Origin: Paramacrobiotus metropolitanus
Taxonomy: Eukaryota > Tardigrada > Eutardigrada > Parachela > Macrobiotidae
Direction of reading: 5' to 3'
Length of the DNA: 64,000 nt
Assembly: GCF_019649055.1 (NCBI RefSeq)
Contig: NW_026570238.1
Span: forward strand, 1,426,001 to 1,490,000
Made by a program: the position numbers and the translations under genes
Notes under the pieces: generated by a model
What the model was told of the DNA's origin: nothing
Databases searched by the model: none
What the model saw: the letters and a program-made list of their open reading frames with translations, nothing else
Shown here: one piece after another, positions 27,966-60,079 of the stretch
How the letters are laid out: the number at the start of each line of letters is the position of its first letter
Position numbering within the stretch: the stretch's first letter is position 1

Positions 27966-30900
27966 ATGTCGTTCGGATTAGGAAATGGTGATGCGTACTT
28001 TTCGCAGGTGTTAATGGGCCACATGCAGTCTGCGCTTGCCAAAACTTCCCCTTCTGTAGATGAGAAGCTGCCAGGAGCTCCCTCTGAGCAGCCTTCTGAC
28101 TTCAACGGTTACGCATTAACTTCTTCTGTAGAGGTGCATGATAGCCAGGAACCACCTCTACCATCACTTTCGAATGGAAGCAGTGCGCATCTTCAGCATT
28201 CTCCAGACAGCGAGCGCTTTGACGGACCAGTGATCACTGGCTTTCGTCAAGAAAATTCCCCGGAACTTCCGGAACTTGGTTTGGAGTTTGACAAAACTGA
28301 AAATGATGGACGCATTCTGAAAATGGATAGTACTGCTCATGGAGAGAGTGTGGGCGAAGAAAAAGTGCTTGGCGCCCAAAATTCGAAGGGAAAGACACTG
28401 ACCGAAAGTACAGGTGCGTAGCATAACAGGCTTCGGAGTGTCGTGTATTTTTCTAACTAAATAAATTTGCTCCTTTGTTTTTGCTGTTCTTATATTTCTT
28501 TGGTCCTGTCAGTTGATGTTGACATAATGGTTACCTGTAGAATATGAGATCCCTGAAAGGCCGATTGGTGTCTTCGAGAAAGACAGCGGAATGTCTGGGT
28601 CGGAAACCAGGAAGCCAACCGATGCTGAGGACAATCTGGTCAAAGATGCATTAGGTGAGAGCTTCTGCCACGTTCAGTAATCGCTGAATAGGCATAGCCT
28701 ATTAACTCCATCAGTACCTATTCTTTTTTTGCTCTTATACTTGGAAGTTGACGGCAGCTTATAATGCAGATGGCGCCCCGACTGGTCTTGTTAGTACGGA
28801 CGTTGCTCAGCTTTTCTTCACAGCCATTAACAAGGAATGGAAGATCAGTCCCAGCCGACTGCGCAGCCTTCGGGGTTCGTGATTTCGGCCTGTAAACCTT
28901 TTAAATTGGTGGCTGAAGTTGTTACATGAACCCGTGCTTGCTGTTTTAGAACCTGAACCGGAAATATCCGTTTCGGAAGTGGCGGCCAGCGTCCTAATGG
29001 AATCGACCACTGAATCTATGGATACGCAAAGCGATACTGAAAGTGTATTGAATGGTTTTCCAAAGAAATCCATCGAGAATGGCATTCCGAAGAAATCCAT
29101 TGGTCATGGAAGCAACGGCACATGCTCTCCACCCGCCGAGATGTTTAACACGGGTATTGAAATGGAAGCGGGCGTGGAAAGTGAAGGTATTCTAGAACAA
29201 TCTGGAGCCTCCACTGCAACCGAGATGATTGTGGAACGGGCGGACGAATATCCTTGCGCGCACAAACCGGCTGAAGTCGTTGCTGGCGCAAAGCGACCAA
29301 ATAGCGCTTTAGAAGGTGTGGATCAGTCCGTTGTAAATAGCTTAAAGGAATTGTTTGAAAAATAATTAAAAGGATATTTCTTCATATGTTTCAGCATCAT
29401 TACGGTGAGTAAGGGTAACTAGGCTTTTCTTATCTTTTTTCGTAGAAGGCACATCCGACATTAGTCATGACTCCATAAACTGGGAGGCTAAAGTCCGAGG
29501 AATTTCCCATTTGGACTGTCGGATTGTGAATGATCTGTTGCCATCACTGAGTCCACGAAAGAAACCAAAAATCGTTCAGAAGGAGCAAGTGGAAATAACA
29601 CAGCAGCTGAATTCTGTGCGTTTAAGCTGTCTGTGCGAAGAAGTGATCAAACTAGGAGCGAAAGGCAATGTGGATCGGTACGCTCTGGATGTGACGAAGG
29701 CCTGGGCAGATTTCAAAGGCCCATCGAGAGTCTCCTGGACTCCTCAGGGAACCGAAGCTGCCTCGACTGTAGCAGTTTGTCAAGCGAAAATGAGTGTGGA
29801 TGATAAATTGTACGGGTGTATGCGCCCCATTGCGCGTAGTTTCGTGGGAAATCTATACCGCCCTTCCCCGTCACATCCACTGATTGGACTATGCGAAGTA
29901 CATTGTGCAGGCTTGCGAAATCATAACTGCTGCCCTGGTTGCGGAGTGTTCTGTGAGGTGGGAGAGTTTCGGGCGTGTTCACACAAGAGCGGCCATTTGT
30001 ACCATGAATCGTGCACAGAAAGGGACAAAATTGGAAAGGTCCGATGTATTCATTGCCTAAAACCATCCAGTCATGTTAAAAAGACGATAAAAAATCCTGG
30101 TTTGGTGCCGGTTAACTTTTGTGCAGAAGACTTGGATCCGCAGTTGCTTCTTATGGCTCGACGCCCACCGGTTTCTTATGTGGGAATTCCTTTAGATACT
30201 TATTATAGAGATTTTCCTCTGGGTTTCCGTGTAGCTTGTGCGTATTTACCGCCTTCTTATGCTCAAGAACTGAAAGAAAAGCTGAGTCAGTTTGATATGG
30301 GAGTAAGTCTCAGATTTATAAGTCACGTTTTTATTCGCTAATAATTTTATCCTTTCAGGTTCAACAAGAAATGGAATGGCTTGATTTGTTTCAAATGGTT
30401 AAGGATGGGGATATCACTGGAGTGCTTCATTTCGTGTGTAATCCGGCAAATCTGCAGACGCTCTACCAAGAATGCGTATCGCGACGAAAAAGCGGGAATG
30501 ATCTGTTGGATCATTTTCCTTTATCTGGACCGGTGCATCTTGCGATTCAGCGGAACCACCCGATCATTTTAAGTATTTTACTACAGCTGGGTTTTCCGTT
30601 GACTTTGCCCGATAAGGATGGGAATTTACCGTTCGAACAAGCTGCGCTAGCCAACAGCTTCGTATCTTTGGACGTTTTGAAGAAGTTCTACGTCGAATTA
30701 CCTCCAAGCGCTGTACGAGAAATATCGTTGCGAAAATTCCTGCAGCAAAAGCGCTTCGACTGCGTTGCATTGTTGTTTCGTTATGAATTGTATGATTTTG
30801 GAGAATTCGCATTTACCAGAGACGAACAGCAGGAAGCCCTGAAAAACTTGTTTTCTTGCGGAAACATTGCTGTTATCTCTAATCTGCTGGAATGCCCACA

Positions 30901-31999
30901 TATTGTGGATCAGCTGCGTTATGGAACGTTTGGATCGGAAGTGGTTGGAATTTTGATGAAAAACTGGCGGCATCGATTTGCTGTAGCAGCACTTAATCAG
31001 TTGAGCATTCGGCTTCTGAGCAGTATTCCTGACGTTTTTGACGATGGACCGGTTGGAAGAAAAATGTTGGCGGCATCAACCGGTGGTGCTTTGCCTGCTG
31101 TTGGTAAGAGTTTTTTTTTAAATTAACGTTTTTAAAATATTGAGAAACTAAAAACTGTCGTTGATGCAATTTTTATATACGTATTTGCTTTAGGAGCATC
31201 GAAATTTTTCGACGGGGCAGACGATCCTGTTCTCGTTTGTGACCTTTCTGACAGTCGGGAAATGCATCCTGTGGAGGTGGTCAACCGCTTCGATCAGACC
31301 TTGCCGGTGCCGTTTTTCTATTCTATTCAACGCACTGTTGCTCACGATAAATTCTGGAGCATAGGCTTGCATTCGGATAAGTCTTGCAGGTGTGAAAATG
31401 ACTGTACTCGACTGTGTTCCTGTTATTCTGAAACGGGTTCTAGTTGTTTATACACTAAAGACAGACTCCTGGATGTGGATCGTTATCAAGGCGAGCCTTT
31501 GTACGAATGTTGTCGATTGTGCCGTTGCTCACCTACCGAATGCCGGAATCGTTTAGTGCAGAACCCTTCCTTAGGGTTCTTTCAAGTGTTCAAAGCCAGA
31601 GATGGCACATGGGGGTTGCGTTCTAAGTACGCCTTGCCAAGAGGATTTTTTGTGGGAAAACTTACAGGATCTCTTGCTCATATGGGGACAGTAAATAAGG
31701 TCTTGATTGCCGGAGAAAAAGAACTACATATTGTGGTTGTCAATGCTGATCGCGAGGAGGACTTCACCGGCATAATCACAAGAGACTGTGGGAATTATAC
31801 GCGATTTTTGAAAATGGAGGCACGTGGCAATGTCATGGCCGTGCAGGTGTATACGGACAACGACGCAACTGATGTTCCACAGATTGGATTCTTTACGAAG
31901 GATGTGGTGAGCGCGTTTGAGCCGCTTGTCTTACAGATTGGGCAGTTGAAAACCATTGAGTGGAGCCATGGCATGAGTGAAAACCGATACAAAACGTGA
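27966..31999 (+). CDS. EHMT/G9a-like protein with degenerate (probably inactive) SET domain
   Basis: Exons 27966-28413, 28541-28654, 28758-28874, 28950-29315, 29446-30302, 30359-31103, 31194-31999; 3453 nt, 1150 aa. Residues 1-350 are acidic and low-complexity. Residues 458-551 are the EHMT-specific Cys-rich domain, with LCEVHCAGLRNHNCCPGCG matching human LCEDHRGRMVKHQCCPGCG. Exon 6 (634-882) holds weak ankyrin-like repeats. The pre-SET at about 947-1000 keeps the zinc cysteines (CRCENDC, LCSC, ECC, CRCSPTEC). In the SET part, the family's RFINHLCDPN is replaced by RFLKMEARGN (about 1085), GEELGFDYG by FEPLVLQIG, and the post-SET cysteines are absent. EHMT enzymes mono- and dimethylate H3K9; this copy lacks the Asn-His and Tyr needed for that. 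The exon 4 donor is a choice: a 10-nt microexon (29395-29404) is an alternative. Confidence 0.85.
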
Positions 32000-37113: not shown

Positions 37114-39078
37114 ATGGCTAGTATGAAAATGAAAAAGCGGTTGCGAGATCGCAGTGAATCTCCTAGCGATGTCAGTGGAGAGGATTGGGAAGATGACAGC
37201 GACGGAGGGTCTGATACAGAAGTAAGCAAGGGTCTTCGTGTGCCTCGGTTTTCCCAAATTACCGGTTTCTTTGCAGCTGCAAGAAGCCTTCGCGAGTGGA
37301 AAGCTGAAACCTGGTTTGAACTATAGTGTGGAGCAGAGGAAACCGTGCGCCAACAATAAGGTACGCTCTACTGCGGGATATGGATTTTTAATGACAGCAA
37401 ACCGTAGAATTTTACTGCACACAGGAAGGCTTAATCCAGAAGCTGGAAGAGATCAAGCTGGACTTGCCCTGGATTGAACGATTGGACTTAACGAGTCGCC
37501 TAGCTCCACTGGCTCCCGAGATTGCCGCACAAATTGGCATTGATCCTAATCTGGTGGTAAAAACCAAATCTGCAGCCAAGAAGACGAAAACGAACGAGGA
37601 TGATGATGTAGTTGTAGAAGAGGAACTGGATAATGTGGACGACGATTTTAAAAGAGAACTGCGATTGTGAGTTAAAAGCTTTTTTTCGGGATATTTTAGT
37701 TGTTTCTCAATTAAGTATGAATCAGATCGGAGATAATTATTTTCTCTGGAGGAGCTTTTTTTGGCGTAGCGTAACATAATATTTTGCAATTAGCATTTTT
37801 GTACGCCTTCTGTTTTTTTAAAATGAATAAAATTTTTTTCCAAGAAATCTAGTTCGTTTTACCTTAATGTTACTTCCCAAAATTTTCAACCTAAACTTAT
37901 GTGTACACGGTAATCGTCTCTGTAAAACAGAAGGTGGGACACCGTTAATAGCTTCTCTTTACTTCGTTGTGCGCTGTTTGTGAATTCGCTTGCGCATTTA
38001 GAAATACTCTGTAATCTTTGGCTTCGTGAATCTGTAATATTTTTAAGGCCTTGATTTTTCTGTAGTTATCGCCAGGCCCAAAGCGCTGTTTTGGAAGCCG
38101 TTCCTCGCCTGCATGCCCTCGGCATTCCTACAAAACGCCCTACTGATTATTTTGCTGAAATGGCTAAATCTGATGAACAGATGAAGAGGATTCGCGAGAA
38201 ACTCATCAGCAAGCAGCAACAAATTGAGCTATCAGAAAAAGCCAAAAAGATGCGAGAGCAAAGGAAATACGGCAAACAAGTGCAACTGGAAGTCATGAAG
38301 AAGCGTCAGGAAGAGAAGAAGCGCATAGCGGAGTCCGTGAAAAAGTTCCGGAAGGGGGCCAAGGGCGAACAGGATGAGCTGGACTTTCTTACCGAACTCG
38401 AAGATTCACGGAAAAATACCAGTAAAGGCACTAACCGACATCAACAGAATCAAAAGGGACCGATAAAGTGAGTAATAACTAGCGATTGTTTCATTTTTGT
38501 AGTTACAACTCATTGTTGCTGTAATACTTATATACCAAGGTGGATAGGGTACCCTATCCACCTTGCTTATACCAAAGCACGACATGAAGCTGTACCAAGG
38601 GGTTACAGTGTAACGAAAAAGTTATGCAGCGCACCCTAATAACGGCCTGCGACAATATGTGCCAGCTGGTGGTGACTTTCGGGAAACCGAATCTGCGCGC
38701 ATGAGCTGTTTACACGGTGCTAGTATCACTACGAAACATTTGTGAATGTGCCATAGTTAAACAATATTTTTTCGTTACTCACTTTTTTTTATTTGGTTCT
38801 GATCGCTGTCGCTGATCGCTTTTACTTTATTTTCATGACATTGTTTGGTTTGCAGGAAAACCGGAAAACAGAAATATAAAGACACTAAATATGGATTTGG
38901 AGGCCAGAAGAAACGATCAAAATACAATACCAAAGACAGTGCGGATGACGTTCATGGGAAATTTGATCGAAGAAAGCACGGCTCGGCTCCAGGAAACCGC
39001 AAAGGAAAGAAGCCTGCACAAAAAAGGCCGGGAAAAGTCACACGGTTGAAGATGAAAAGTAATAAGAGTAAACGGTAA
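37114..39078 (+). CDS. EBNA1BP2: rRNA-processing protein EBP2 (EBNA1BP2 homologue)
   Basis: Nucleolar factor needed for 27S/28S pre-rRNA processing and 60S subunit assembly. Exons 37114-37221, 37277-37360, 37425-37666, 38066-38467, 38856-39078; 1059 nt, 352 aa. LQEAFASGKLKPGLN matches human LQDAFSRGLLKPGLN. LDLPWIERLDLT matches DLEWVERLDVT. FYRQAQSAVLEAVPRLH and PTKRPTDYFAEMAKSDEQM are nearly identical to the human protein. The C-terminus is Lys/Arg-rich, ending in a nucleolar-type tail (YGFGGQKKRSKYNTKDS...). An acidic N-terminus (SGEDWEDDSDGGSDTE) is typical. Human length is 306 aa. All introns are GT-AG; intron 4 contains a 30-bp palindrome. Confidence 0.95.
38536..38565. repeat. Perfect 30-bp palindrome in EBP2 intron 4
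   Basis: CAAGGTGGATAGGGT followed directly by its exact reverse complement, centred on GGTACC. There is no spacer. Confidence 0.92.
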
Positions 39079-40394: not shown

Positions 40395-44449
<4,055 letters not shown>

Positions 44450-44773: not shown

Positions 44774-45156
44774 AATTAAAGCGCTGTGAACAGAAAGACC
44801 AAGCCACTCGCATTAAGTGCGCTTTAATTGATATTTTCGGAAATATGAGGACATATATATTTCACTTCCTAAGCATTTGCACCGCTTTTGATAACCGCAC
44901 GATAACGCACGATTGTTTGCCTGTAATTAATTTGTGAATGAATTTCGTGCGTTATTCTGCATAAACATAACCTCTAATACAGTGAAAAGAGACAAACTTA
45001 GCTTTTCCTGCCGTAATTTTTTTTTATAATTTTCCTGAATTGATTCTTTTGATACGCCTTTCCCGATTTCCTGAGTTTGCAACTTGTTATAACTTTGAGC
45101 AGTGTGCTGCATATACAGTGTGTATCTGTTGCAGTGTCTTTTCTAAGCCTATTGTT

Positions 45157-45162
45157 AATAAA
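45157..45162 (+). terminator. Polyadenylation signal, polyamine oxidase
   Basis: AATAAA about 380 bp after the extended ORF and 700 bp after the UGA. The extension therefore lies inside the mature transcript. Confidence 0.5.
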
Positions 45163-46092
45163 TGTTTGAGACCAGATTGAAGTGAGCAAAATGTGCTCAA
45201 AGACCCTTAGAAAAAAGTCTACATTCGCTCTTACAATGACGCATACTACTTAATTTATGTTGAAATATCTGTTGTCTCATGGTATGAAAAATTAAGAAAT
45301 ATGAATTTTCTTGTTTGTTTGTTTTTTTCAGTTGCAGTTGTCTGCACACTGAGACTTTCTATACCTGATAAAGTATAGTATAGGACATCACATGAAAAAT
45401 ATAGGGTACTTTTGCGTGGTTTCTCGTGCATAACGCTACAGCTGCTCATAATTGTTTTAGTAGAACAATTAATAAACGCAACGACAGCGTTTTCCTGGTT
45501 TGAATCGGCTCTTCTTTAACTTTGTCAGTAAGCGCTTTGTACAAATGTTAAATCATAGTACCGTCTGATGAACGTAGCTTATTGTAAACGGCAGTAATAA
45601 ATGGGCCCTGTGCGCATAGTTTACGCACTGTGCCATTTCATAGATTTATGGTTGTCATCCGGATGCTAAATCTCTGCATCAACAGTACCACTTAATCAAC
45701 CACAATTACTTTGCTGAAGTTTTGATGCGGAATGCTAGATTCTGTTATGTAAATCAAGCCATCTTGTTGTAACTAAAATTAGACATTCAGTATACCACAG
45801 TTTTTGCTGTGGACTATGAGTTGGCGAAATAATAACCTGGGTGCAGATTAAGCAAAAGGCAGATAATAAAGCGTTATTTCGTGTACCGTATTATGTTAAT
45901 TCAAAGCAGCACATTCCGCAAATATGCAGCTGCAGTATATGACCTTACAGCTGTTGCTATATACACGCTACGATTGCCTAGCATAATTATTTTTTGTTTT
46001 GGGAGATCGTCTTCTAAAACGTCAAACTTTTGCTTTTGGATTCGGCGCCGTGTGACATTATAAAGAATTTTATAAGGCTGTATTGGAGCAAA
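45163..46092. other. Intergenic
   Basis: No gene recognised on either strand; AT-rich spacer before the astacin-like cluster. Confidence 0.45.
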
Positions 46093-48475
46093 ATGGTTAG
46101 GTTTACTTTCGTTTATTTTTTAAAGTCTTTTACTGATATTGTGACTTATGCTACCCTGCTGTATACTTTATTTCAAAACAATTATGTGGTTGTTTGTACT
46201 ACGCTAACCGCATTTAAGCGTTCTGCAAACCTGGGGGTTCCAATTCGATCAGCAATCGGACGAGATACTCGGTACACAGAACCTATTTGATTTTACGAGA
46301 TAAAAGTTAATTAGCCAACCTAGGAATGCTCCAGCTTTTGATTTATTTTGTCATGATTTAATCCAGCTACATTTTACAAATCCTCATGCGATGTGTACAG
46401 GTTTGTACCTTGGGAAAACTCTACCGCCATATTATACCGGCTTGATCCTGCTTATTGTAAGTTGAAAATACGCGTCCTGTTCAGCACGCGTTGGAGCTTT
46501 TATCCTATGCACTTGCTGAACAAGTTTCATTTATGTGTATTTTAAAGAAGGTTTTTGATAGCCGCTGGAGAACTTGCTCTTATTCAACAGGCCATGACTC
46601 AGATATCAGTAAGTATCGCTTCCTTCCTGATGCAGAATTTTATATAGTACTTAGATGTACGCTTCAACAATAAAATGCAGCAAAAGTGTAGCATAATTTG
46701 CTGTCATTCTTGACCTTTGGATTGTTTAGTCAGACATGAAAGGTTGCATCCGGTTTCAACCTTACTCGGTGGAAATCAACAATGGAATGGATTTTCTCTA
46801 TATTTCCAGAACGCTGAACTCCGGGTAAGTGTATATTCCTCAAACTACCTTTCGTAAAGTTAATTTTTCTAGCAGCAGCTCCCAAGAAAAAACGAAAGCG
46901 TGGACGGCAGCCGAATGATGGAACTGACCACCAGTTCACATACTGTCATGAAAGCTACCTCGTACCATGCATCTTCCAGAGCCGCGTTGGTTGTCGAAGC
47001 CGTGCAGCCGTTTCTTGTTTAGTATTAGTACCACCACTAGCACAATCAGGTTGAATGATAATTTGGGAAAATTCAAAATTAGATGTGTCAAGAAAGTTCA
47101 ATGTGAGAACGTTCTGGTGGTCCGAACATACCTAATAGCTGCGGTCTTATGAATTAAATTTCCTTGTTTTGTTCCAGGAGTACTATGCCGACGTGCTTCT
47201 CTTTCCCTGGTGAGATATTCGTGTGCCTTTAATGATCGACATTACTTTGACAATTTATACGTACTCACTTTTCCAAGTACCCAAATACAACGTTGCCAAT
47301 AATTAGGAAGGGTGGTATCACAAGACGGTGCAGGGCAAAAGGTGGCATTATTCAACAGTCCTAACGGGAACGGGTGCATGGATTCCGTACGCGATGTAAT
47401 GAAATTTTTAGCACATGCTCTTGGGCTTCGCAACGAGTATAACAGGTACTATTACATGGTACCTTTTATCATAATTTCAAACTTTACAGAAAGTAAACCT
47501 GCATGTGGCAGAAATATTAATTGCGTTTTAGGCCGGACAGAGACAAGTACATCACCGTGTTCACAAATAATATCAAATCAGGTACGAGTAGAAACATTTT
47601 GGTTAAAATATTATAGTTGTCTATGCAAATTTTTGTAAATCGTAACATGTCAAGAATCTGAAATATTGCAGAAATGCGGTCGCTAAACTTATTCATGAAG
47701 TATACGCCGGATCAAGTGGATTATCTCAATACGGAATTCGATTATAACAGTGTACGTCTGACGGTGTGAGCAAAAAACATATATTTAAAAATAATAATTA
47801 TGTTCAGATCTAGATAGGTACAGTGCATTATGTTAGTAAAATTATGACCGTTGTCAGTAGGTTTTGATAGCTAACAATTTTTAAAAGGTGAAAGGTGGGT
47901 TGTAACGGTACAGCTACGTATCCGTGGATTTTAATTTTTACAATACAGAATTCATTTAATATCAAGTATAATAGCGAACACAGATTGTGCAAAATTTTAC
48001 ATGCTATGATGCTAATATCCATACATTTTCTAGATAACAATGCCAAGCCCAACAAAATATGCAAACCCAGGAAGCGTCATCTTTGCGTCAAGCCGCTCAG
48101 GACAAGGATTTGGAAATCTTCCAAGATTGAGCCAAAGTGACTGCATTGGAATCGGACTCCAGTACACCCAATGCAATTTCGCAACGTGTAGCGATCGTAA
48201 GCAATTTAGCAAAAAATAATTACTTCTCTCAATTAGCAAAAACCAGTACTTCAATCAAAATCTAATGGTAAGTGCAAATGTTAATATAATGTTAACTGCT
48301 ATCTACTTCGAGTTAAACTTTGCGTACGTAGCACTTTGAATACAGTATTTCTTTTCACTTGGCAGCATACCTCCGCACTTCCGGTTCAAGAAACAGTATT
48401 GCTGCAGCGTCCCGAGCAGGAGGTTCAAGCGTTATTTTTGGATTAGCCATGAAATCGGAAGGAAATGATTCATAA
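46093..48475 (+). CDS. Astacin-family pseudo-peptidase, copy 1
   Basis: Exons 46093-46271, 46401-46456, 46562-46608, 46730-46824, 47178-47209, 47307-47445, 47532-47581, 47672-47751, 48034-48196, 48366-48475; 951 nt, 316 aa. Order: hydrophobic N-terminus, GRDTRFVPW...AILYRLDPAY, IQQAMTQIS, GCIRFQPY, TCFSFPGR, DVMKFLAHALGLRNEYNRPD, RDKYITVFTNNI, FDYNSITMPS, LSQSDCIGIG. This is the astacin (M12A) order: xxPYxI, AMxxI, CIRFVP, CxSxVG, HELMHALGFxHEQSRPDRD, DYxSxMHY. Of the zinc site HExxHxxGxxH, the first His is Lys, the Glu is Phe and the third His is Asn; only the middle His remains. The Met-turn has SITMPS in place of SxMHY. No peptidase activity is expected. The first exon is the least certain. 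Intron phases match copies 2 and 3. Confidence 0.8.
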
Positions 48476-49866
48476 CTCATAAAAGGATTTGAATTCCATC
48501 ATTCGTGAAACTGCTTTTTGTGATATTATGTACCTAATTAGTAATGCATGTATGTCCGTTTAAAATGAAGACCGAATTACTAAGGTCAAATATACTTCTT
48601 TGAAGTGTCTGTTGCATTTTCTACTTTTTACTCCAGATTGACTCATCGTGAATATGCTGGTCGAAAGTTTATACTAAAAGAAAAAAACTAAGGTCAAACG
48701 CTCTACAGGCACTGCGGCACTGCTCTACAGGTGATGCGAATTCTATAGATAATACAAATACTGGTGCGAATACTGTGGATAGGTAATACCTGGCTGAATA
48801 ACGGGTTTGTAGATTAGTTGCGTGCGGTCGATGTCTGCAAGAAATATCTACATGAGTCATGAAATATATTTAAAGCAAAATACGAGCATCTTTGAAAAAA
48901 ATGGTTTTACTGGAATACTTTCATTCGTTTATTTGAATTAAATGGGGAGTTTTATTTTTTTTTTAACTTACGCCGATTTTTTAAATTTGGCTATTACCGG
49001 TTTCGTATGGCAAATATGGACACAAAGCCAGCTGCAAAACGGCAACAAAATGAAATGCGGCACTGACACTATACTCTAACGACCAGCTCAAGTCTTTGGC
49101 AATTCGAAATTCATATATTTGTAAGCGCACCAAGTGAGTAATAAACACATCAGTACTTTAGTGATCAAAAACGCTTCCGTGACCTTTTTCTAGAATACGC
49201 TACTCTGAAGTAACCGCTATGTACATCTACTCAATAAATGGCCTATTCTCTATAATGGTAAGTCAATAGTCCAACATCTAGCTTGCCTTGCGTATGCAGC
49301 AATATGTGCTTACAAATTGGTTTCACAGTAAACAAATTTTTGGCTATTAGAAACCCGATGGAAACGACAAAAAATATTGACGATAGGTTGCTGACGGCAC
49401 GCATAATTTATTAGGCATATAGCAGATATAGGTTACTTTGCTTTAACTACCTACATTGTCTGTCCACTGATTCGAACTACCTACTTATGGATAAGTCGGC
49501 TCGCATTTGAATTTTTAAAGTGCCACGATACGCGTTCTCCTGCGTCTCTCGCCTGCTTTATAAAATATGTTCCTGAATATTAAACTGAAACATAGTTTGC
49601 TTTAAAGCAATTGTATTTGCATGTACTCTCTTTTGTAGAAAGGTTCGCACATGTTGATGTTAAAAAATTACAGATGTTGATGTTAAAAAATAAGGCTAAG
49701 GCTAAGAAAACCACAATGCTGCGAATACGGGACGAAAACCGACTGAAGCCATTACAGTTGTTTTTTTTTAAAACAACTGGCGCTCGCTTGCTTATGTTCG
49801 AATAACAGTATGTCATCTAATAACGAAATAAATAAAGAAAATTACGAGATTTTGACGGTTAAGTCA
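48476..49866. other. Intergenic
   Basis: No gene recognised. A short AAGGCT repeat occurs at about 49691-49705. The DNA transposon's target duplication follows at 49867. Confidence 0.45.
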
Positions 49867-49876
49867 CGCTCCGGTC
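49867..49876 (+). repeat. Target-site duplication, left
   Basis: CGCTCCGGTC immediately outside the left terminal repeat; identical 10 bp at 52073-52082. Confidence 0.88.
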
Positions 49877-50327
49877 GGGTAATACTAATTAATGTTACTG
49901 GTACTGGTAGTGTTACTGGTAGTGGTACAATAGAATGGTACTGGTACTGGTACTGGTAGTAAAAATGGTACTGTTACTGGTAGTGGTACTGGTTGTGGTA
50001 GTGGCATCACGTTATGGTACTGGTGCTGTTACTGGTAATGTGAAAAACAAAATTATTAGGATATGTTGTTAAATTTTGGAGAACAACTTCATATAACATC
50101 GTTGCCGTATAGCACCCGTTGACCTTTTACAAATTTAGGTTTAAACAATTTTGAGCAGTTTTTAATGTTTTAGTGCAGTTCTCATGTTTTAATGTGCCAC
50201 TTTTGTTACCTGACATGTACACAATCACTTATAAACTGTAGATCAGCTTCAGCCAAATGTAATTATAGCGCTTCTTTAAAGCAGTTACATTTTGGTCAGT
50301 TTACATCATCATTTTGGCGCAGCTCTA

Positions 50328-50918
50328 ATGATGATTACGTCGATTTCAGTGGAGCTGCTCGCTGAACTTTTAGGTAAGGCCAAGTCGATCTTGGCAAAGC
50401 CAAATCCTGTGGTCGGTACGCCGGGAGGTGTCGCGACAAATTTTATGGTCGTGGGATACAAAGCTGGATTAACCCATCAGGTGAAACTCGATACAGTTAA
50501 ACAAAAAATAAAGTGCGACAAAAGCTGTAAATCGTTTGCGGCATTTGGAGTGTGTCCTGAGGTTTTGGCGGTAGCTATTCATCAAAAAGCAGTGGATGAA
50601 TTGGTGGCGTGGTTGAACTCTCCAGCGCTGCAGAGTTGCAGTCGGTGCGGTATGTCCAGTTTGATAGAGTCCGCAGCTCCAGCGAATGCCGGTAGAAAAC
50701 CACAAGGTACAAGCAGGAGAATGGGATCAAATACTCGTTCGGCTGCACCGACGTCGGTACTTCGAGTATCAACAGTCTGTCGTTCTTCATTTTTGACTAC
50801 GCAGGTGACTGCTGCTTCGTGCGCACGTAAGCGCAAGCGTGCTGAGATCGAAACGCCTTGCATAACAATTTCATCCGATAAGCAAACGGAAAATCGATCT
50901 GCATGCGGGCTATCGTAA
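50328..50918 (+). pseudogene. Transposon ORF 1: degenerate SWIM-like zinc-finger region
   Basis: 196 codons from ATG 50328. SVELLAELLGKAKSILAKPN...VVGTPGG is followed by KIKCDKSCKSFAAFGVCPEVLAVA. The latter resembles the CDxxCxxFKxxxICSHxVAVA finger of a family widespread in cnidarian and mollusc genomes (recalled). The His of the finger is replaced (CPE instead of CSH), so metal binding is doubtful. Then GRKPQGTSRR, a basic Ser/Arg-rich stretch. No DDE catalytic core lies upstream within the element. Probably the leftover C-terminal part of a transposase. Confidence 0.55.
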
Positions 50919-51041
50919 AACAAAACATTATGCCGCAATTTTTCAGGAGATTAGTGTAGAGCAACTCGGGGAAAAACCACAACCTGATCCTGGAGAATAC
51001 GAACTGTGGCTACTTCAGGACTGTAATAAAAATACCGCCAA

Positions 51042-51329
51042 ATGATGTGGCTGCACACGAAAGTTCAAAAGACTGATGATATACCATTGCCGCCAAATGA
51101 TCTAGTGTTTGTAACAGTCGGTCGTCGCTCTTATCTATTGTCTGGAAGCACTTCTGAGAAGGGAAAACCTGGAAATGTGCAAGTTCACGCTGTTTCAAGC
51201 TGTCTCGTACAAGTTTCAAGACGGGTGAAAGTAGCGGAACTTTCTTCGGCGAAAAAATGCACTTCTGCGGCTACTAAGAACAAGTTGCAGCCGGCAAACG
51301 AAGAGGCGCTGTGGAAGTTGTGGAAATAG
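51042..51329 (+). pseudogene. Transposon ORF 2: C-terminal transposase-like remnant
   Basis: 95 codons, offset in frame from ORF 1. It contains IPLPPNDLVFVTVGRR...SGSTSEKGKPGNVQVHAVSSC, resembling the tail of the same SWIM-finger family (PPNDLVxVxxxRR...STGxxxxKxGNxxxHVxxxC). The 120 bp between the two ORFs contain stops in all useful frames, so the product is broken. Confidence 0.45.
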
Positions 51330-52072
51330 ACATGGGTCGTCTTATCCAATGTACGGAATTTTTGGCGTTATTATTGCATTTAATTTTACTGCATTTAAAT
51401 ATCTGTTATTAGGCCTGTAACTCTTGTTGTCTCTTGAACATAAAAGCACTTCAGTCGCTTTCTAACTGACCTATGAGCTGCCGCTTCGAATAGAATTGTT
51501 AATAATTTTTTTAACGCACCTCGCATTTGCTTAGAAAATTGTTATGGTCTTATAATACTTCTCTACGGTCTGGCATTTTGATGTGATAACCATTTAAGAA
51601 ATATTTAGCATTTTGGTTAGATGACCACTTATGCGTTTATACTTGTGAAATCACGACTTTACGTCGGATAAATGACGGATAAAATTTATAATTATTATGA
51701 CAGTCTGCACCTTTTCTGCTGTTATACTTCTAGGTAAACCGGATATTGCCTTGTAGCAATATTTCGTTAGTAATAATAGCTCGTTATTAATAACGCGTTA
51801 TTAAAGTTATTGCGTACCAGCCTTGCGGTTCAGCATCCGTTAAGGTGTCGTGTTGTGCCGACTGCCGGTAACATAATCGGCAATAACGGAACGTCAAGGC
51901 GAAAACGTCAGACCGTAATCATGTACCATTACGTGATACCACTAACACACCCAGTACCACTACCAGTAACAGCACCATTTTTACTACCACTACCAGTACC
52001 ACTAACATTATATTGTACTAGTACCACTACCAGTAACACTACCAGTACCAGTAACATTCATTAGTATTACCC

Positions 52073-52082
52073 CGCTCCGGTC
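52073..52082 (+). repeat. Target-site duplication, right
   Basis: CGCTCCGGTC directly after the terminal ...ATTACCC, identical to 49867-49876. Confidence 0.88.
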
Positions 52083-53655
52083 TACCAGTGCACGCCAACG
52101 TGCATTTTCCTAGTGTTAAAAAGTTACCGTAACAATCCGAGTCATGGGTGCATCACGATCGTCTAATCACCTAATTTAGAACTGAAGCTACAGCGCGGCA
52201 CGCGGGATAGAATATTATGTATATTAAAATTTTAAAGATGGATGTCGAAAGTCAATAAACTGTTCATATTTCTCAACAACGGATAAGAAAATCCGCAGTA
52301 TAAAATAACCGCAAATCTGAAACGAAATCAATATTTTTTATCTGCTTGCGCCAAAACATTGTACAATTTCAAAAATTGGAATTTACCCCAAGCTTATCTA
52401 ATGCAAATTACCAAGTCAATTAGATGATTTACATAGGTCACGGAAATACACACGTACAGTACTAGCTAGTAATACAAACGACAGCTTATGTTGTAGAGCC
52501 AAGTGATACTTCACTGCATGTTTATACTTTATATTGTACATGTGTAAAAGCAGCTATAATTATATAAGTAAGTAAGTAAAAATTTATTTTTATTATGGTT
52601 TAGCATTCTCTTTCGCCTTAGTGTGATTTAAAACAAATGGTTGGGAACTGTCGAAGTGAAACTGGGGTGGAAGTCTTATAGTCATTCATGTCGAGCAAAA
52701 CGACGGAGCGCCAGGATTGTCTTGTAGCGACAACTTTATTCTTTATGATCTTTCTCTTTATGAACTAATTAGGAATGAAGTTACGAACTGTATTCCTTAC
52801 GACAACGACACGCTGCACTGCATGTACTGAGATACCATAGCCTGTTGTCATAATACTAGTTAGAGAAGGTATGGCATAGCTAGTAGAGAATAGCAAATGC
52901 CGGAAGTACGAGTATTTCGCCCTGGAGAAAACGGTTGTTTGCCCCTGCTATCCCTTGGTCGCGAAAAGCTTTGGCACTTTTGAAACCATATCTGCTGAGA
53001 CGTTTCTCAGGGATGAAGAACGAATATTCATACGATTACGTTTTTCAGGGATGAAAGTTGTATGTTATCTTGGAAGTTTTGCTTAACGGCTAAAATTTTT
53101 CTTGCGCATTTCAGGAATGAGCTGCTGTTGTAAATAGCAGTTAAGTTATAATGGAGTGAAGTACCGGTGCGGAGACATTTTCTTAGAAAATACTATTTCA
53201 TTATGCAGTAGCATTGTTATGGGTGCATATCGCAGATCTCCCACATGTAATAATCAGTTCCGACACCAAATAACAGTTCAAGAAATGTTTTTGTATAGCA
53301 ATTCGAATGTATTTTGCGAATAGGGCAAAAAATATCCATCAGAGAATGGCTAATCATACCGTACGTAATTTACGATGGTTTGCGCTGAATACCTAAGTAC
53401 AAGATGACGTTCCCAATTCATAATATCATTCATATAAACTATGTTTTTTGCTATACATTATAGAGACAAACAAAATTATAATAAACCAGCTTGTTAATTT
53501 ACATTTTGGCAAGTAATGCTTCTTAACACAAAAAAGAATGTATATGAACTCATCAGCACTAAGTGTTTCTCTTTCTGGCCAACTCGTAATGAAAAGATTT
53601 GCATGAACCTGGCCGGAGAAAATTGTACAACATCAGCAATAACCGAGCGAATGCA
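52083..53655. other. Intergenic
   Basis: No gene recognised. The region upstream of 53656 must carry the promoter of astacin-like copy 2; no clear TATA box. Confidence 0.45.
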
Positions 53656-55476
53656 ATGCCGTCATTTATTCCAAAAGCAAAATGTTTCGTTGCTTTAACT
53701 TTCCTTATTTTTATTGAATTTTGTGCAGGATCCGTTGTAACATTTTTTGATAATCCAAAGAACGCTGACACGCTTATAGAACGAGCAGTACTATCAGTTA
53801 ACTCACGGTATGGACCTTGGACAGAACCTACAGCGATCCCGTACAGACTATCGACCTCTTACAGTACGCATTTTTCTTTTAATTACGGACTATGCAGTGT
53901 CCTTTATGGTTATATAAAGTATCGCATCTTGTGGCAATGTAAAATAAAAACCGATCTGCTAAAAATCAAACTGATTAATTGCGAATGGTGATAATAATGT
54001 GTCTACACTCTTTCGAATTAGATCAGCAAGAGATATCGCAGATCCAGGCGGCAATGGCGCAGATTTCAACCGATATGGGCCAGTGTATACGGTTTGTACC
54101 GTATAATGATGCTACTGACCAGACCAAGGATAGTCTGTTCATCTCTCCCTCACTGAATAACGGGTAAGTCCGGTGTTCAAAAGTCAGTCATGCATACATT
54201 TTAACAAATTCTGTAATTTATTATAAAATACATTCAGTCATGCTAAAAATTCTAGATCGCTAACCCAAACATGCTTTTCGTTTCCTGGACGGCTAATTAA
54301 CCAAGCAACAGCGAATGGTGTTAAAGGTGGACAAAAGCTGGGAATGGTTAGTGGTACTGATGGGTGTTTGGGGAGCACACGAGAGGCCATGAAATATTTA
54401 GGTGCGTCACCTTACACACCCAGTTGAAGAATTGTTTCCGCCCGTTGCAAAGGATTTGTTTGAACATTTCTAGCGCATTCCCTTGGACTACGAAATGAGT
54501 ACTTAAGAACTGACCGCGACACTTACATTACGGTAAATAACAAGACATATCACTGCTGCAACGGTGACCTTTTGTTACTAAAGTTAAAATTTATGATGTG
54601 ATCAATCCAAATCCAATTACAGGTGTTTCCACAAAACATCCGGACAGGTAATGTAAAACTGAGCAAGCATTATATTATACGGTTTGCGCAGCAACTTCGT
54701 CAAAAATTGTTAACAAACAATATGCCCGCGATATACTTTTTAGATCTGCAAGGACTGTCACTGTTGAACATTTACACGCAGGCTTCGCAAGTCCAGAATG
54801 TTGGCACGTTTGATTATAACAGTATCACAATGCCTAGCACCACAAAATATACAACATCTGGAATGCCATTATACTCCGTCGCCCAAACCGGCGTGCCCCT
54901 GGGCACCGTCGCATCCATAGGGACGTTGTCCAGACTGAGCCAAAGTGATTGCACTGCACTTGCTAGTATTTATACCACCTGCAGCGCTGCTTCCTGTGCA
55001 AACCGTATGTACATTTATTTTATCATCGGCATAATGAAAAAACCAAAAAAAGTTTTAGGTTACAGTAATACCATAAATAATTGTATTCGTAGTTTGCTTT
55101 GCGACTTTGATCGCAGGCTTTTAAACACATAAAAATACCGACGCTTACATAGTTTGGCATTCTATTGTTATGTTCCTTTGTCTGTATAAGGCTACTACTA
55201 CTATAAGCGCCTATTTAATTACCTTCGGCCAATTTTGTTGCAGCTTACCCCGGAGCAGTGATTCCCATCGTCAGTCCTCTCGTGGTAACAACTGCCGCAA
55301 CACCTTTACAGCCAATAAATGTGGGAGATGTTGTCACTGGTGTTCCAGTAGTAAACACTGTGAATCCAAATCTTCCGGTGGCTCCTACTGTTCCCACAGC
55401 TCCGCCTACTGTGGCTACTGTGGCTCCAGTTGATCCTCTTTCTCCGCTGGAGCCTCCCGGCGGCGTTTCATTTTAA
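53656..55476 (+). CDS. Astacin-family pseudo-peptidase, copy 2
   Basis: Exons 53656-53863, 54022-54163, 54256-54401, 54474-54532, 54623-54647, 54744-55004, 55244-55476; 1074 nt, 357 aa. A clear signal peptide (CFVALTFLIFIEFCAG) is followed by WTEPTAIPYRLSTSYNQQEI, IQAAMAQISTDMGQCIRFVP, TQTCFSFPGRL, AMKYLAHSLGLRNEYLRTDR, DTYITVFPQNI, FDYNSITMPS, LSQSDCTALASIY. In the zinc motif HExxHxxGxxH, the first His is Lys, the Glu is Tyr and the third His is Asn. The conserved RxDRD after the motif is kept, so the fold is probably intact. The tail, from about residue 282, is Pro/Val/Thr-rich (VAPTVPTAPPTVATVAPVDP). The ATG at 53656 is chosen over 53599 because it directly precedes the signal peptide. No propeptide with a Cys switch is seen. 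Confidence 0.85.
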
Positions 55477-56262
55477 AAAAATTAGACCTCCTTTACGGGT
55501 TTAGCATAAGATCATAAATATTTACATTTTGTTGGCCGCCTTACCTTTACTAAAACACACATAAAGTGCACTGGTTAATATTTCAGTTAGGTAAGTTTTC
55601 AATTAGGGGTTTGATAAAGACAAGCGTAATAATCATTCGGTTCATTTCAATACGTAAACGATACCGACAATAACATGATTCTATCAAGTATTAAATATGT
55701 TAAAATCTCTTGTAAGTCTTTGATAAACAATACCGGTATTAATATATATTTGTTTGCGTACAGTCATTTTATACCACCATTACGTAAACATGGTAAGGTT
55801 GCACTGGCAAAGGATTGAATGCCAAAACGCAAAACGAACTCGTTAATGCTATCAAATCGAAGTTTGAATTAAGAGTAATTTACTTAAATTGGACAAGATT
55901 ATCTTCTTACTTAACTCTGCAGCGTCAGTAGCACAGTAAAATCATTTGCGAATCCGCGGCATCAGTGTTAATAAAATACTGTATTACGGTATTTCCAATT
56001 GTTGGCATTGTACTGTAGGAATCACATAAATGCACTGAGTCCTCCATTTTTAGTAACGAAATGCCACGACAGCTGCCAGTGCAAATGTAAACGTGCAAGC
56101 ATGATGCACTCTTGTTAACATTATTGTCTGTTCCTTGGGTAAATAGATTTTTTAATCGTTCCGCTCTTATTAAATGTAACCGAATAGCCGGCTTTTGCAT
56201 AATTGTAATACGGATTATATGCAAAACACGCATGGTTACAGTTAAGCATCTCATGCACCAGG

Positions 56263-56270
56263 TATATAAG
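56263..56270 (+). promoter_or_regulatory. TATA box of astacin-like copy 3
   Basis: TATATAAG 125 bp before the start codon, the best core promoter match in the cluster. Confidence 0.45.
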
Positions 56271-56394
56271 CTGTTCGCCCGACACCGGAAAATCACACAA
56301 ACGCGTCAGTACGTTATCAACTAACAATAATTTGCTATCTTTTACTAAAAATTTCGTTATTCCAGCACATATTAATAGTGACCTCGCTCCTGCC

Positions 56395-57984
56395 ATGGAA
56401 GCAGTTAAACTTATTGTTGCATTTGTATGCTTGACCGGTGTTTCCGCCCTTCCTTCAGCAAGGCTAGAAAAACGGGCTGCATTAAACCGGGATACCCGGT
56501 ACGATGTGTGGGCAAACCCTCAAAGAATCCTTTTTCGACTGGATACTAATTACAGTAAGACACCGTGAAAAACTTCTACCGCTTTTGCGTCTAACTGATC
56601 CACGATTTCTACTAGATGGAACTGAGGCGGCGGATATAGATGATGCGATGAACCAAATTTCTTCCGACATGTCCTCATGCATACGTTTCTCTCCCTTTAA
56701 CGTTGTCACAGATTCGCGAGAGGATCATATTTTCATCAGTCCTGTCTTGAATTCTGGGTATTTTGATTTACTAATAATTTTTTTAATCAGCACGCTAATA
56801 GTGAATTGATACTATCAGTTTACGTAATTTCATTGACGAGAACATGTTTTTGGTCTTGTTATTTAGGTAGTAACACTGCGAATTTTAACCGGGCTCTCTT
56901 CGACTTTAGGGTTTTGGCTACTTCCTGCTCGACGTTTCCGGGCAGATTGGTCAGACAAAACGGTCAGGGCCAGAAAATGATTATGACAGCAGGCCCAGGC
57001 GGTTGTATGAGCGCGAAACGGGATATTATGGCAGTTCTGGTGTCGGCACTGGGCTTGCGAAACGAACACAAGTACAACTTCTTCCTGATTAATTAGTGGT
57101 TATGTTGATTAGCTGCTTGCTGCATTCACTACCTGTATGATCCGGAGACTTTAATCTGTTTTTTTGTAGGCGGCCAGACCGAGATGATTTCCTGCAAACT
57201 TTTCCGTCCAATATTCTTCCAGGTGAATGTGACGATCAATTATGAACTAGAATAATCTGGATAACTTTTATATGAAATTTTAAGAGTTAACAGTTCTGAC
57301 ATAAAGCGCTTTGCATTTTCTTAGATCTCCAGTCTCTAAATTTGTTGCGCATCTACAATGCCAGCCAAATTGAGTTCCGCTCAACTGCCTTTGACCTTTT
57401 ATCCATAACCATCCCTTCAGCATCCCGCTTCGCCCGAGCCAACACTGTTCTGTACACTCCAAGAGATGCCACTAGAACACTGGGCAATCTGGCTCGTCTA
57501 AGTGTCGGAGACTGTAATGCACTGAGGCGGATGTACCCGACCTGCAGTTCCATAACATGCCGTAACCGTAAGTAACACTAGTACATATCAATATGCAACA
57601 ATTATTCTTTACCCAGGTAACTTTTAACATATTTACTACGTACGTATGCGTAAATATTCACTGGTATTACTGATGTTAACTAAATATTTATGTTTAGCTT
57701 ACGCAAATGCCACACTTGCTTCCGTTGCCTCGACCAGCACAAACGCTCCTGCCTCTGGAAATGCACCCACGAGTACTTCGGCGATCTTGGAAGCTGTGCA
57801 GTCGGCTGCGGGTGCATCCGGTAGCGGTCTCGTGATTGCTAACACTAATACTGTTGGAGCTACGACGACATCTACGTCCACAGCACGGACAACGGTAGCC
57901 GCTCGAGCAGCCACAACAACTCAGTCGGGACCGGTGGAATCACCATTCGACGGACTGGAATTTGCTCTGCGCCCTCAGGCTTGA
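56395..57984 (+). CDS. Astacin-family pseudo-peptidase, copy 3
   Basis: Exons 56395-56554, 56616-56757, 56910-57071, 57170-57222, 57325-57567, 57698-57984; 1047 nt, 348 aa. Signal peptide MEAVKLIVAFVCLTGVSA, then RLEKR, a possible dibasic cleavage site. NRDTRYDVW...ILFRLDTNY, MNQISSDMSSCIRFSPF, TSCSTFPGRL, DIMAVLVSALGLRNEHKRPD, RDDFLQTFPSNI, FDLLSITIPS and LSVGDCNALRRMY follow the astacin order. This copy has lost all three zinc His and the Glu (HExxHxxGxxH reads AVLVSALGLRN) and also the Met of the Met-turn. The tail is Ala/Ser/Thr-rich and mucin-like. Exon 3 could start earlier (56871), but 56910 aligns with the other copies. The exon/phase pattern matches copies 1 and 2, so they arose by tandem duplication. 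Confidence 0.84.
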
Positions 57985-58216
57985 GCTACAGTTTAATGTT
58001 AACATGTGGGACGTTAATTCGTTCTGTGGTAGTGGGTCAGGTAGACGTGCCAGTAATATACGAGTAGTACACGCGCCTATCGCGTCTTTTTTATTGAGTG
58101 GCTGGGTTTTGTAAGCTTGTACTCGTATATTGCGCTGATGGAAAAACCGCAGAATATTTTTATTTTGGGCAATAATCACTGATAACATTTTTGAAACTGA
58201 AGGTCATGCGCTCAGA

Positions 58217-58222
58217 AATAAA
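58217..58222 (+). terminator. Polyadenylation signal, astacin-like copy 3
   Basis: AATAAA 233 bp after the stop. Confidence 0.5.
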
Positions 58223-58380
58223 AAAAATTCTTTAATAGTGCATTTGATACTTTTAATCCAGGAAAGGTCACAGTTATACGCATACTGTAGCATGATCGCA
58301 AACACAATTAGAGGCTCAATCAAACTTGTTCGCAAGTTCGCAACTTGGTCTTGCAAGGTGCCCTTATTGGACTGTATATA

Positions 58381-58386
58381 TTTATT
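58381..58386 (-). terminator. Polyadenylation signal, Cys-repeat protein
   Basis: AATAAA on the minus strand, 75 bp after the stop of the convergent gene. The two genes' 3'UTRs overlap in this 480-bp gap. Confidence 0.5.
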
Positions 58387-58460
58387 ATACAAACATCTTT
58401 ATAGTAACTGGTGACTCTTATGGATTGTGCTCTTAATAAGCAAATGTCGGACAAAATACA

Positions 58461-60079
58461 TTAATGCTTGAGCATGTAACTGAAGTCCCCGCTGAAATCT
58501 CCGGTCCACCGGCGTCCGCTAAGACATTTATTGCTTAGACTCCTCTGACTTTGATTGTCGGGGCACAAAGCACTTGTTCCATGGCATTCATATGTGCGCG
58601 ACGCTTTGTCAAAAATGCATGTAGCCGCCACAATCTGCGATTCCGCTGACGCATCGGGGACCGCATCCAGAATTCCTAAAATTGTAATAATGTATTTTAT
58701 GCGCCTGTTGAAAAGTGCTAAAACATAACTATTCAAGCAAAACTATTTTTGGCTGCAGGTGGAAGTTGAGGATGTGCTGTTTGTCGTAGTACTTAATGGC
58801 TAAACTTTGCCCTAATTGACGGCCTTGCTTAGAAAATAGACTCATACCATTGTCTGCCTCCCAGCGTTTTACTGGGGGACCATTTCTCGGTTCGGTGCAG
58901 TTGTAATCCCGTCGATTAGCATCCACTCCCTGCTCTGTGACAACCCTTCGGAAGCGCTCCGTACAGTTGCGACATATGACCTCACCATTGGTAAAATATT
59001 CACAAACGATGACATTACGAGGCACGACGGTATAAATAACACTTCGGTAGCTTCCATCCCCGCTTGCAGACAGCCCCGTGTCACCATCGCCTTCTCGAAT
59101 GCCGACTTGGTCGGTGTCAGTGCCACTGAGAGGCTCACGGAATCGTTCCCGTTCAGTACTGTTTTCATCAGTCTCCTGCACTACGACATTGTCCTCGGTG
59201 TTGTCATCTTCCGGTCGGACGTAACTGGGCACCGGGGCGGGAGTGGTAGTGGTGGTCGTCGTGGTAGTTGTGGTTGTGGTGGTTTGCTGCTGGAACCACC
59301 AGCGATCTTGACCCAGGTCGAAAGCCGAATTTAAAGAACCCTTGAAATTTCCGTTCCAAAAGTTACCCGCATACCGGGATCCAGCGACACAGGAAAACAG
59401 TCCACTGCGGAAAAACTCGCAGATTGCTACGAGCTCATTAGAAGATGGCATTCTGGCGTATTCAGCCGGGACAATTCCTGCACATTATTCACTTGTACAA
59501 GCATCAATACCAATACCTTTTTTTGCGCAATGTAAAATTAAATGTCAAAATAAAGTAAAGAGATCGTAGTTACGTATTACCAGGCTGAAAAACAGACTTA
59601 CGTTATGATGATGATAATGATAATCAAGGCGCGGGTTAAACAACGTGTGTAACTGTCAACTGTATCCATCAAGTTTTCAAATGCTGCGACTACATACACC
59701 AATTACCTTGGTTCTGATTCCATGTTCCATTTGACTTTTCAATTCGATCAACACACGCTTGTACAACATCCGCTAAGGTATTCCTCGCGTGTTCTGATGG
59801 ACGACATCGAAGCTGTCCCATGCATTCTACTCGATTATTAGCAAAAAAGTGACACTTTCCAATGGCAGACTGGTTATTATCTGTGGAGAGAAATCCAGGA
59901 TTGGTACAACTGGTTTAAGAGGCACTAATTTGGTATATGTACGCATGCAGCCATACAAAATATTAATAATAATTACTGCAATATTGACAATAATCATTGT
60001 TGCGTATCTTACCTGCTTGCGATACACAAAGAAGCGCAAAAATAATCACCGCTACCGGTGTTACAAAATAAGCGTCCAT
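58461..60079 (-). CDS. Secreted Cys-repeat protein with poly-Thr linker, unknown family
   Basis: Exons 60079-60013, 59880-59707, 59477-58848, 58675-58461; 1086 nt, 361 aa, all junctions phase 1. An N-terminal signal peptide (FVTPVAVIIFALLCVSQ) is present. Four imperfect motifs of type C-x-(F/Y)-(F/D)-x(2-3)-G/N/S-x(2)-V/F-x-C occur: CHFFANNRVEC (exon 2), CEFFRSGLFSC and CEYFTNGEVIC (exon 3), CIFDKASRTYEC (exon 4). The Trp-Gly pattern WNGNFKG recurs as WTGDFSGDF. A run of 14 Thr followed by PAPVP links motif two to an acidic region. Potential N-glycosylation sites include NGT and NCT. I do not recognise the family. The phase 1-1 exons each carrying about one motif suggest growth by exon duplication. 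Expected to be extracellular. Confidence 0.72.

Follow-up and report, generated by a model that had tools for sequence, protein, structure and literature searches.

Three neighboring genes on the forward strand of a 64,000-nucleotide stretch of the Paramacrobiotus metropolitanus genome (contig NW_026570238.1, positions 1,426,001 to 1,490,000; this whole stretch is called the window here) encode proteins of the astacin family that have lost the zinc site on which the peptidase activity of that family depends. The three genes are members of a single, old clade comprising about 60 zinc-less genes, and their products are probably secreted, disulfide-stabilized, non-catalytic binding proteins built on the astacin fold. 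The original prediction, which had been made from the letters of this DNA alone, placed three same-strand, astacin-type genes in the window, and they are present there as open, spliced proteins whose introns are all GT-AG and which all pass the Pfam Astacin cut-off. Their coordinates within the window are as follows.

46093..48475, forward strand: gene 1, a zinc-less astacin-fold protein of 316 residues; 10 exons, open frame; Pfam Astacin E 7.8e-20
46093-46271, 46401-46456, 46562-46608, 46730-46824, 47178-47209, forward strand: exons 1-5 of gene 1, exon 1 being less sure
47307-47445, 47532-47581, 47672-47751, 48034-48196, 48366-48475, forward strand: exons 6-10 of gene 1
53656..55476, forward strand: gene 2, 357 residues; 7 exons, open frame; Pfam Astacin E 1.3e-15
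53656-53863, 54022-54163, 54256-54401, 54474-54532, 54623-54647, 54744-55004, 55244-55476, forward strand: exons of gene 2
56395..57984, forward strand: gene 3, 348 residues; 6 exons, open frame; Pfam Astacin E 4.7e-15
56395-56554, 56616-56757, 56910-57071, 57170-57222, 57325-57567, 57698-57984, forward strand: exons of gene 3

The exon models were put together by hand, and the first exon of gene 1, which carries a long hydrophobic stretch, is a hand choice and less certain than the rest. Our own spliced profile aligner gave exon joints identical to the hand models across the domain in all three genes; the profile consisted of the three models themselves, and this agreement is a test of splice consistency rather than an independent one. 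Introns at alignment column and phase (20,1), (67,2), and (139,1) and a tail intron at (225,1) are common to the three genes. Astacin is the sole Pfam domain above cut-off in each protein, with 71.8, 58.0, and 56.2 bits for genes 1, 2, and 3 vs. a cut-off of 22.5, and PDB profile matches were to astacin-family structures (3vtg, 8a28, 3lqb, 1ast, and others), the structurally solved relatives being astacin, hatching enzyme, tolloid, and meprin. Chance resemblance to astacin was rejected, as the profile matches span about 200 residues, and a match to the NCBIfam Legionella LegP model (41 bits, cut-off 300) was set aside as plain astacin-domain kinship. Genes 2 and 3 are 42% and 39% identical to gene 1, which indicates that the array is old. 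We did not detect a fourth copy: a repeat search of positions 45001-60000 returned genes 1-3 alone, and when the entire window was scanned as 8-kb pieces, with the single best match taken from each, the three genes scored 432-435 and no other place more than 33. A search of the genome with the gene 2 protein listed no other match on the contig that carries the window.

At the place of the zinc-binding motif HExxHxxGxxH the three proteins read KFLAHALGLRN (gene 1), KYLAHSLGLRN (gene 2), and AVLVSALGLRN (gene 3), and HExxH was found nowhere in the three window proteins, which bears out the claim that all three genes are without the motif. The helices that take its place are encoded at the following positions.

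47402..47437, forward strand: former zinc helix of gene 1, KFLAHALGLRNE, replacing HExxHxxGxxHE (from the sequence and its alignment with intact paralogs)
54392-54401 and 54474-54499, forward strand: former zinc helix of gene 2, KYLAHSLGLRNE, split into KYL and AHSLGLRNE by the intron 54402-54473, which three other genes of the 60, on C54 and C113, have as well
57031..57066, forward strand: former zinc helix of gene 3, AVLVSALGLRNE, with all three His lost (from the sequence)

The second zinc-binding His (His96) is kept in genes 1 and 2, and gene 3 keeps no His. The Met-turn SxMHY, which contains Met147 and Tyr149, is replaced by SITMP in genes 1 and 2 and by SITIP in gene 3. The FxGD aspartate switch, the propeptide motif that confers latency on astacins, was likewise not detected in the three window proteins, a comparison for which exon 1 of gene 1 is unsure and the intact copies were not counted as a control. 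Each window domain contains six cysteines: the four known from astacin (columns 41, 73, 99, and 217), which we take to form the disulfides Cys42-Cys198 and Cys64-Cys84, and two more at columns 207 and 222.

The genome (169,799,020 bases in 533 contigs) was searched with the gene 2 protein and three more distant members, and with the Pfam family, Astacin giving at least 164 exon matches, intact or altered. Ninety-two loci were fetched (L041-L043 among the locus labels are CAHS loci), and 90 of them together with the window yielded 105 domain models scoring at least 60. The zinc helix could be read in 103 models, 25 of them intact (23 by script, with L048 and L063 corrected by eye) and 78 altered; these counts describe a sample and not genome-wide proportions, because most of the queries were zinc-less proteins.

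Phylogenetic trees were built without the catalytic columns from a short alignment (134 columns) in which the inner branching is resolved in part, and 16 of the 103 rows, those shorter than 100 residues, were excluded from both trees. The first tree, of 87 rows, separated 60 zinc-less rows from the rest, and a single intact row, L082, fell beside them on a branch of 2.23; the L082 model ran across an intron, and the row was set aside as misread. The second tree, of 84 rows (L082 and the doubtful rows L077 and L091 dropped), contains the 60 zinc-less gene models, from 26 contigs, in a single clade with support 100/100, zero intact members, and a long stem of 1.13 changes per column. Of the 225 domain columns, 190 or more are covered by 51 of the 60 rows and fewer by the other nine. 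As the clade is without an intact copy, the tree supports a loss of the trio's zinc site before the split of the 60 genes, with one origin among the sampled rows. The proposal that loss preceded duplication is thereby upheld on a larger scale than had been claimed, and with the misread L082, which had fallen beside the 60 rows, set aside, the clade contains no copy with an intact HExxH. Over the whole 84-row tree there are five label changes, four beyond the clade's own loss, and the starred branches force at least four losses in all, three beyond that of the clade; a single loss for all 66 altered rows of the tree was rejected by the approximately unbiased (AU) test (p 0.0008). On this phylogeny, the zinc site was lost separately in further astacins of this genome.

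The 60 rows share a substitution pattern at the former catalytic site. Position 92, which is His in astacin, is Lys in 32 rows and Arg in 21 (53 of 60); four more rows have a basic residue one position later, and three, including gene 3, have one at neither place. The Lys/Ala-Phe/Tyr/Val changes to which the original prediction drew attention do occur, but they are better stated as His92 replaced by Lys or Arg, with the Ala of gene 3 one of three exceptions in 60. The general base Glu93 and the third zinc-binding His are lost from every row, and His96 survives in four, two of which are genes 1 and 2. Arg stands at position 101 in 46 rows, and position 102, also His in astacin, is Asn in 34 and Ser in 12 and never His. 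Met147 has become Thr in 58 of the 59 rows having that column. Glu103 is retained in 59 of 60 rows, and the astacin cysteines at columns 41, 73, 99, and 217 are present in 48/53, 47/52, 59/60, and 38/43 rows, respectively. The added cysteines are found in 58/58 (column 207) and 42/44 (column 222) clade rows.

Once astacin is mature, its new N-terminus is held by Glu103. For the 42 members with a readable N-terminal stretch, namely 41 of the 60 and the short row L003_9331, hydropathy rather than a trained predictor was used to recognize leaders. The leader Met lies 24-31 residues before the core in 14 of the 42, which gives a propeptide little space or none, and 34-55 residues before it in five, which include gene 2 (50) and gene 3 (34). 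Sequences that start next to the leader are AVLNTD, YVINRD, AIFNTD, and AVFNAD in L002, L003, L005, and L012; together with the retention of Glu103, these starts suggest that the N-terminus of the mature protein may remain inserted. Signal peptides had been ascribed to all three window genes: a hydrophobic leader was recognized in genes 2 and 3, and none was found within the readable stretch of gene 1, whose exon 1 is less sure.

Compared pairwise, the window genes differ at 80-93% of synonymous sites (pS 0.80-0.93) and 35-41% of nonsynonymous sites (pN 0.35-0.41), and their frames, splice sites, and cysteines are intact despite such divergence. The ratio of nonsynonymous to synonymous substitution rates (dN/dS) among the copies had been put forward as a check; dS is saturated within the trio, which yields no ratio, and the ratio was read from more recent pairs of the clade. 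Nine closest pairs have dS up to 0.75, and the seven of these without a decayed copy gave dN/dS of 0.16-0.43, not near 1 (Fisher p 1.1e-8 to 1.3e-5); the comparisons, of 106-203 codons, involve 11 genes, one set of three genes accounts for three of the pairs, and three columns at the Met-turn are a gap in the L072 model. For the pairs with a damaged copy, L007/L013 and L008/L011, the ratios were 0.46 (p 0.088) and 0.43 (p 0.013). With open frames at high divergence, pN far below pS, and low ratios in the seven recent pairs, the zinc-less genes look maintained under purifying selection and not decaying, as the original prediction of a maintained family had held.

The reading that we favor begins with a single inactivated ancestor from which the clade, about 60 genes in size, would have descended. 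Established chemistry makes the astacin reaction impossible for a metzincin that has neither its ligand set nor its general base; both have been lost here, and the proteins cannot bind catalytic zinc or cleave peptides in the astacin manner. The fold would have stayed intact, and signal-peptidase cleavage would directly yield the mature form of some members, whose propeptide would be minimal or absent, such a segment being dispensable because no enzyme is left to silence. The emptied cleft would present Lys or Arg at His92, Arg at 101, Asn or Ser at His102, and Thr at Met147 around the kept Glu103, and the conservation of the cleft residues in their new form points to a continuing importance of the site or of its surrounding packing, and hence to a binding role. 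We infer that this cleft would serve as the binding surface for an extracellular partner, with a matrix, cuticle, or other secreted protein as first choice over an active astacin. Inactive metallopeptidases are described in a 2024 review as acting through protein-protein interaction (PMC11266112), and the inactive serine protease paralogs of the scabies mite are reported to bind partners (PMC4031079).

Several observations weigh against this reading. According to the same scabies-mite report, the residual active site is not the contact used by those paralogs (PMC4031079), and another part of the protein may be used here too. The comparison that sets the added cysteines apart is thin, the intact controls being few (Cys in 0/7 and 0/1 readable intact rows at columns 207 and 222). 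In genes 2 and 3 a short pro-segment with a basic residue at its end would fit, and the short-leader argument does not apply to the window genes; no leader was found within the N-terminal stretch in 23 of the 42 members, gene 1 included. The next pairs in order of divergence (dS 0.9-1.5, among the 30 pairs listed) have ratios of 0.24-1.09, which are too saturated to read. Finally, two clade rows look decayed, L011:264-2540 with an in-frame stop and L007:556-2081 with a broken Met-turn region; their near-copies, L008 and L013, have no stop. These lesions are what favors decaying pseudogenes or mis-spliced models as an explanation of the zinc-less genes, yet we regard it as extremely improbable: the window genes combine open frames and consistent splice sites with a level of synonymous difference that far exceeds the nonsynonymous one. 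Misassembled exons are very unlikely, since the zinc-less pattern recurs in 60 parallel cases on 26 contigs.

The same conservation of the substituted residues across the clade could be taken to mean that the proteins are still enzymes, which would use a different metal site or work without metal through the conserved Lys/Arg, Asn/Ser, Glu103, and Thr; with Glu93 and the third His gone from all 60 rows and the second His left in four, continued catalysis is highly unlikely. A role as dominant-negative or decoy regulators, which would bind the substrates, propeptides, or inhibitors of the animal's own active astacins and so tune the intact paralogs, is a tentative alternative. Intact astacins do co-occur in the genome (25 of the 103 sampled models), and the retention of Glu103 and the frame suggests a persisting cleft shape, but after so long a stem (1.13) and with added cysteines of their own the clade proteins may no longer have partners in common with the active enzymes. 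We give a similarly low probability to structural components of the cuticle, buccal apparatus, or eggshell, whose Thr/Pro/Ala-rich tails would be glycosylated or cross-linking. The tail of gene 2 (76 residues, Pro/Val/Thr-rich) is 70% Ser/Thr/Ala/Pro/Val and that of gene 3 (94 residues, Ala/Thr/Ser-rich) is 66%, and M14 pseudo-metallopeptidases are recorded in the 2024 review as interacting with collagens (PMC11266112); against this, gene 1 has a short tail of 35 residues with another make-up (43%), and tails were read for the window genes alone.

Somewhat more doubtful than either of these is the possibility that the metal has been swapped for a side chain. The basic residue at position 92, or at the next position in four rows, would then be a fixed positive charge at the place of the zinc, facing the kept Glu103 and the new Arg-Asn/Ser pair, and the cleft would hold an acidic or carbonyl ligand without cutting it; the founder would have given rise in tardigrades to a diversified set of secreted proteins for recognition, a part of which would lack a propeptide. 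Outside the clade, position 92 is Arg in L038, L075-L077, L084, L086, L088, and L091 and Lys in L057, cases that are not all independent. They hint that the same solution at His92 may have been reached more than once, yet a change from His to Arg takes a single mutational step.

As non-catalytic binding proteins, the preferred reading, the clade members can be set beside several known systems. With the astacin family (MEROPS M12A, including crayfish astacin 1ast, hatching enzyme 3vtg, BMP-1/tolloid, and the meprins) they share PF01400, the four cysteines, Glu103, and RxDRD, and with the intact astacins of the same genome they share intron positions such as (20,1). They differ from the family in having no zinc ligand set, general base, or Met-turn Met or Tyr, in their two extra cysteines, and in the little or no propeptide room of some members. 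The ADAM pseudo-metallopeptidases (ADAM2, 7, 11, 18, 22, 23, 29, and 32, and UNC-71) are likewise metzincins in which HExxHxxGxxH has degenerated and whose roles are non-catalytic; they typically retain the Met-turn Met, according to the 2024 review (PMC11266112), whereas the tardigrade clade has Thr there in nearly every row, and they carry disintegrin and transmembrane parts, whereas the window genes encode the Astacin domain alone by Pfam. The scabies-mite SMIPP-S resemble the clade as a family of proteolytically inactive protease paralogs that act by binding, and differ from it in having a serine protease fold, a parasitic bearer, and a known host target, as far as their published description goes (PMC4031079). 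We saw no inactive astacin (M12A) tabulated among the inactive metallopeptidases of the 2024 review (PMC11266112), and a tardigrade genome comparison mentions 53 peptidase clusters, unnamed there, among the families exclusive to two tardigrades (PMC5531438).

We found no tardigrade or inactive astacin family like this one in the open-access papers searched, by title and start of abstract, subscription papers and preprints being outside that scope. The tag BV898 is one that we take to denote H. exemplaris. A 'putative Zinc metalloproteinase nas-13' with a BV898 tag is an entry in a tardigrade glycoproteome table (PMC12167791). Pseudo-metalloproteases are themselves known; what appears to be new is their occurrence in the astacin family, for which our searches turned up no description, and the unusual scale. 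Accounts of dead proteases usually deal with one or a few at a time, and here one inactivation appears to have founded a tardigrade clade of about 60 genes. This clade and the further losses are a natural data set on the uses of an emptied metalloprotease cleft, and one that also asks whether metal loss repeats one path, from the first zinc His to Arg or Lys and from the Met-turn Met to Thr.

How the three window genes are related within the clade is less clear than their membership of it. The gene 2 introns (111,1) and (130,0) are common to four of the 60 rows: gene 2, two genes on contig C54, and one on C113. Gene 2 groups with these C54 and C113 genes at 99/80 in the first tree and is found in no starred set of the second, and constraining the trio to a clade of its own costs 9.1 log units (AU p 0.235), which neither rejects nor supports it. 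It is therefore not clear that the three are each other's closest kin. The tandem array of duplicates that had been proposed holds as a row of neighboring same-strand relatives; triplication of one gene is unproven because of the introns and grouping that gene 2 shares with the C54 and C113 genes. Possibly the array is an old tandem set and the line of gene 2 spread from it; alternatively, it may be a mixed set.

Outside the clade, the zinc site is partly or fully lost in L038, L040, L054, L057, L059, L075-L077, L084, L086, L088, and L091, and nine of these 12 have Arg or Lys at His92, some of them being close relatives. Like the clade, these and the other losses of the genome (L038, L054/L057, L058/L059, L085, and others) lack a ligand or the base, often with His92 replaced by Arg or Lys; unlike the clade, they are nested among intact copies where they could be placed, and some have lost Glu93 alone with the three His kept. 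In L081:643, L085:551, L058:220, and L095:656 the three zinc-binding His are kept and Glu93 is replaced by Gln, Gln, His, and Leu, respectively. These four astacins are perhaps zinc-binding yet inactive, unlike the clade.

Between genes 1 and 2 of the window lie two hexamer arrays, (TACTGG)n at 49896-50037 and (CCAGTA)n at 51937-52056, which are reverse complements of each other; the open reading frames between them, at 50280-50918 and 51030-51329, have no Pfam match, and the arrays with the frames that they enclose may represent a mobile element. On the minus strand, positions 58729-59484 contain an open frame of 251 residues with a run of 14 Thr and no Pfam match at E 0.01. Conserved neighbors of the array, as judged by Pfam, are an EHMT1/2 Cys-rich region with Pre-SET (histone methyltransferase) at 29409-31996, the rRNA-processing protein EBP2 at 38055-38468, and a flavin amine oxidase at 43021-44449. 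CAHS proteins are characteristic of eutardigrades, and a 71-residue query of the CAHS type gave 18 matches in this genome, the best with E 2.3e-28 and 79% identity. About 85 kb past the end of the window, on the same contig (C18:1574951-1575311), there is a CAHS-like match in two pieces.

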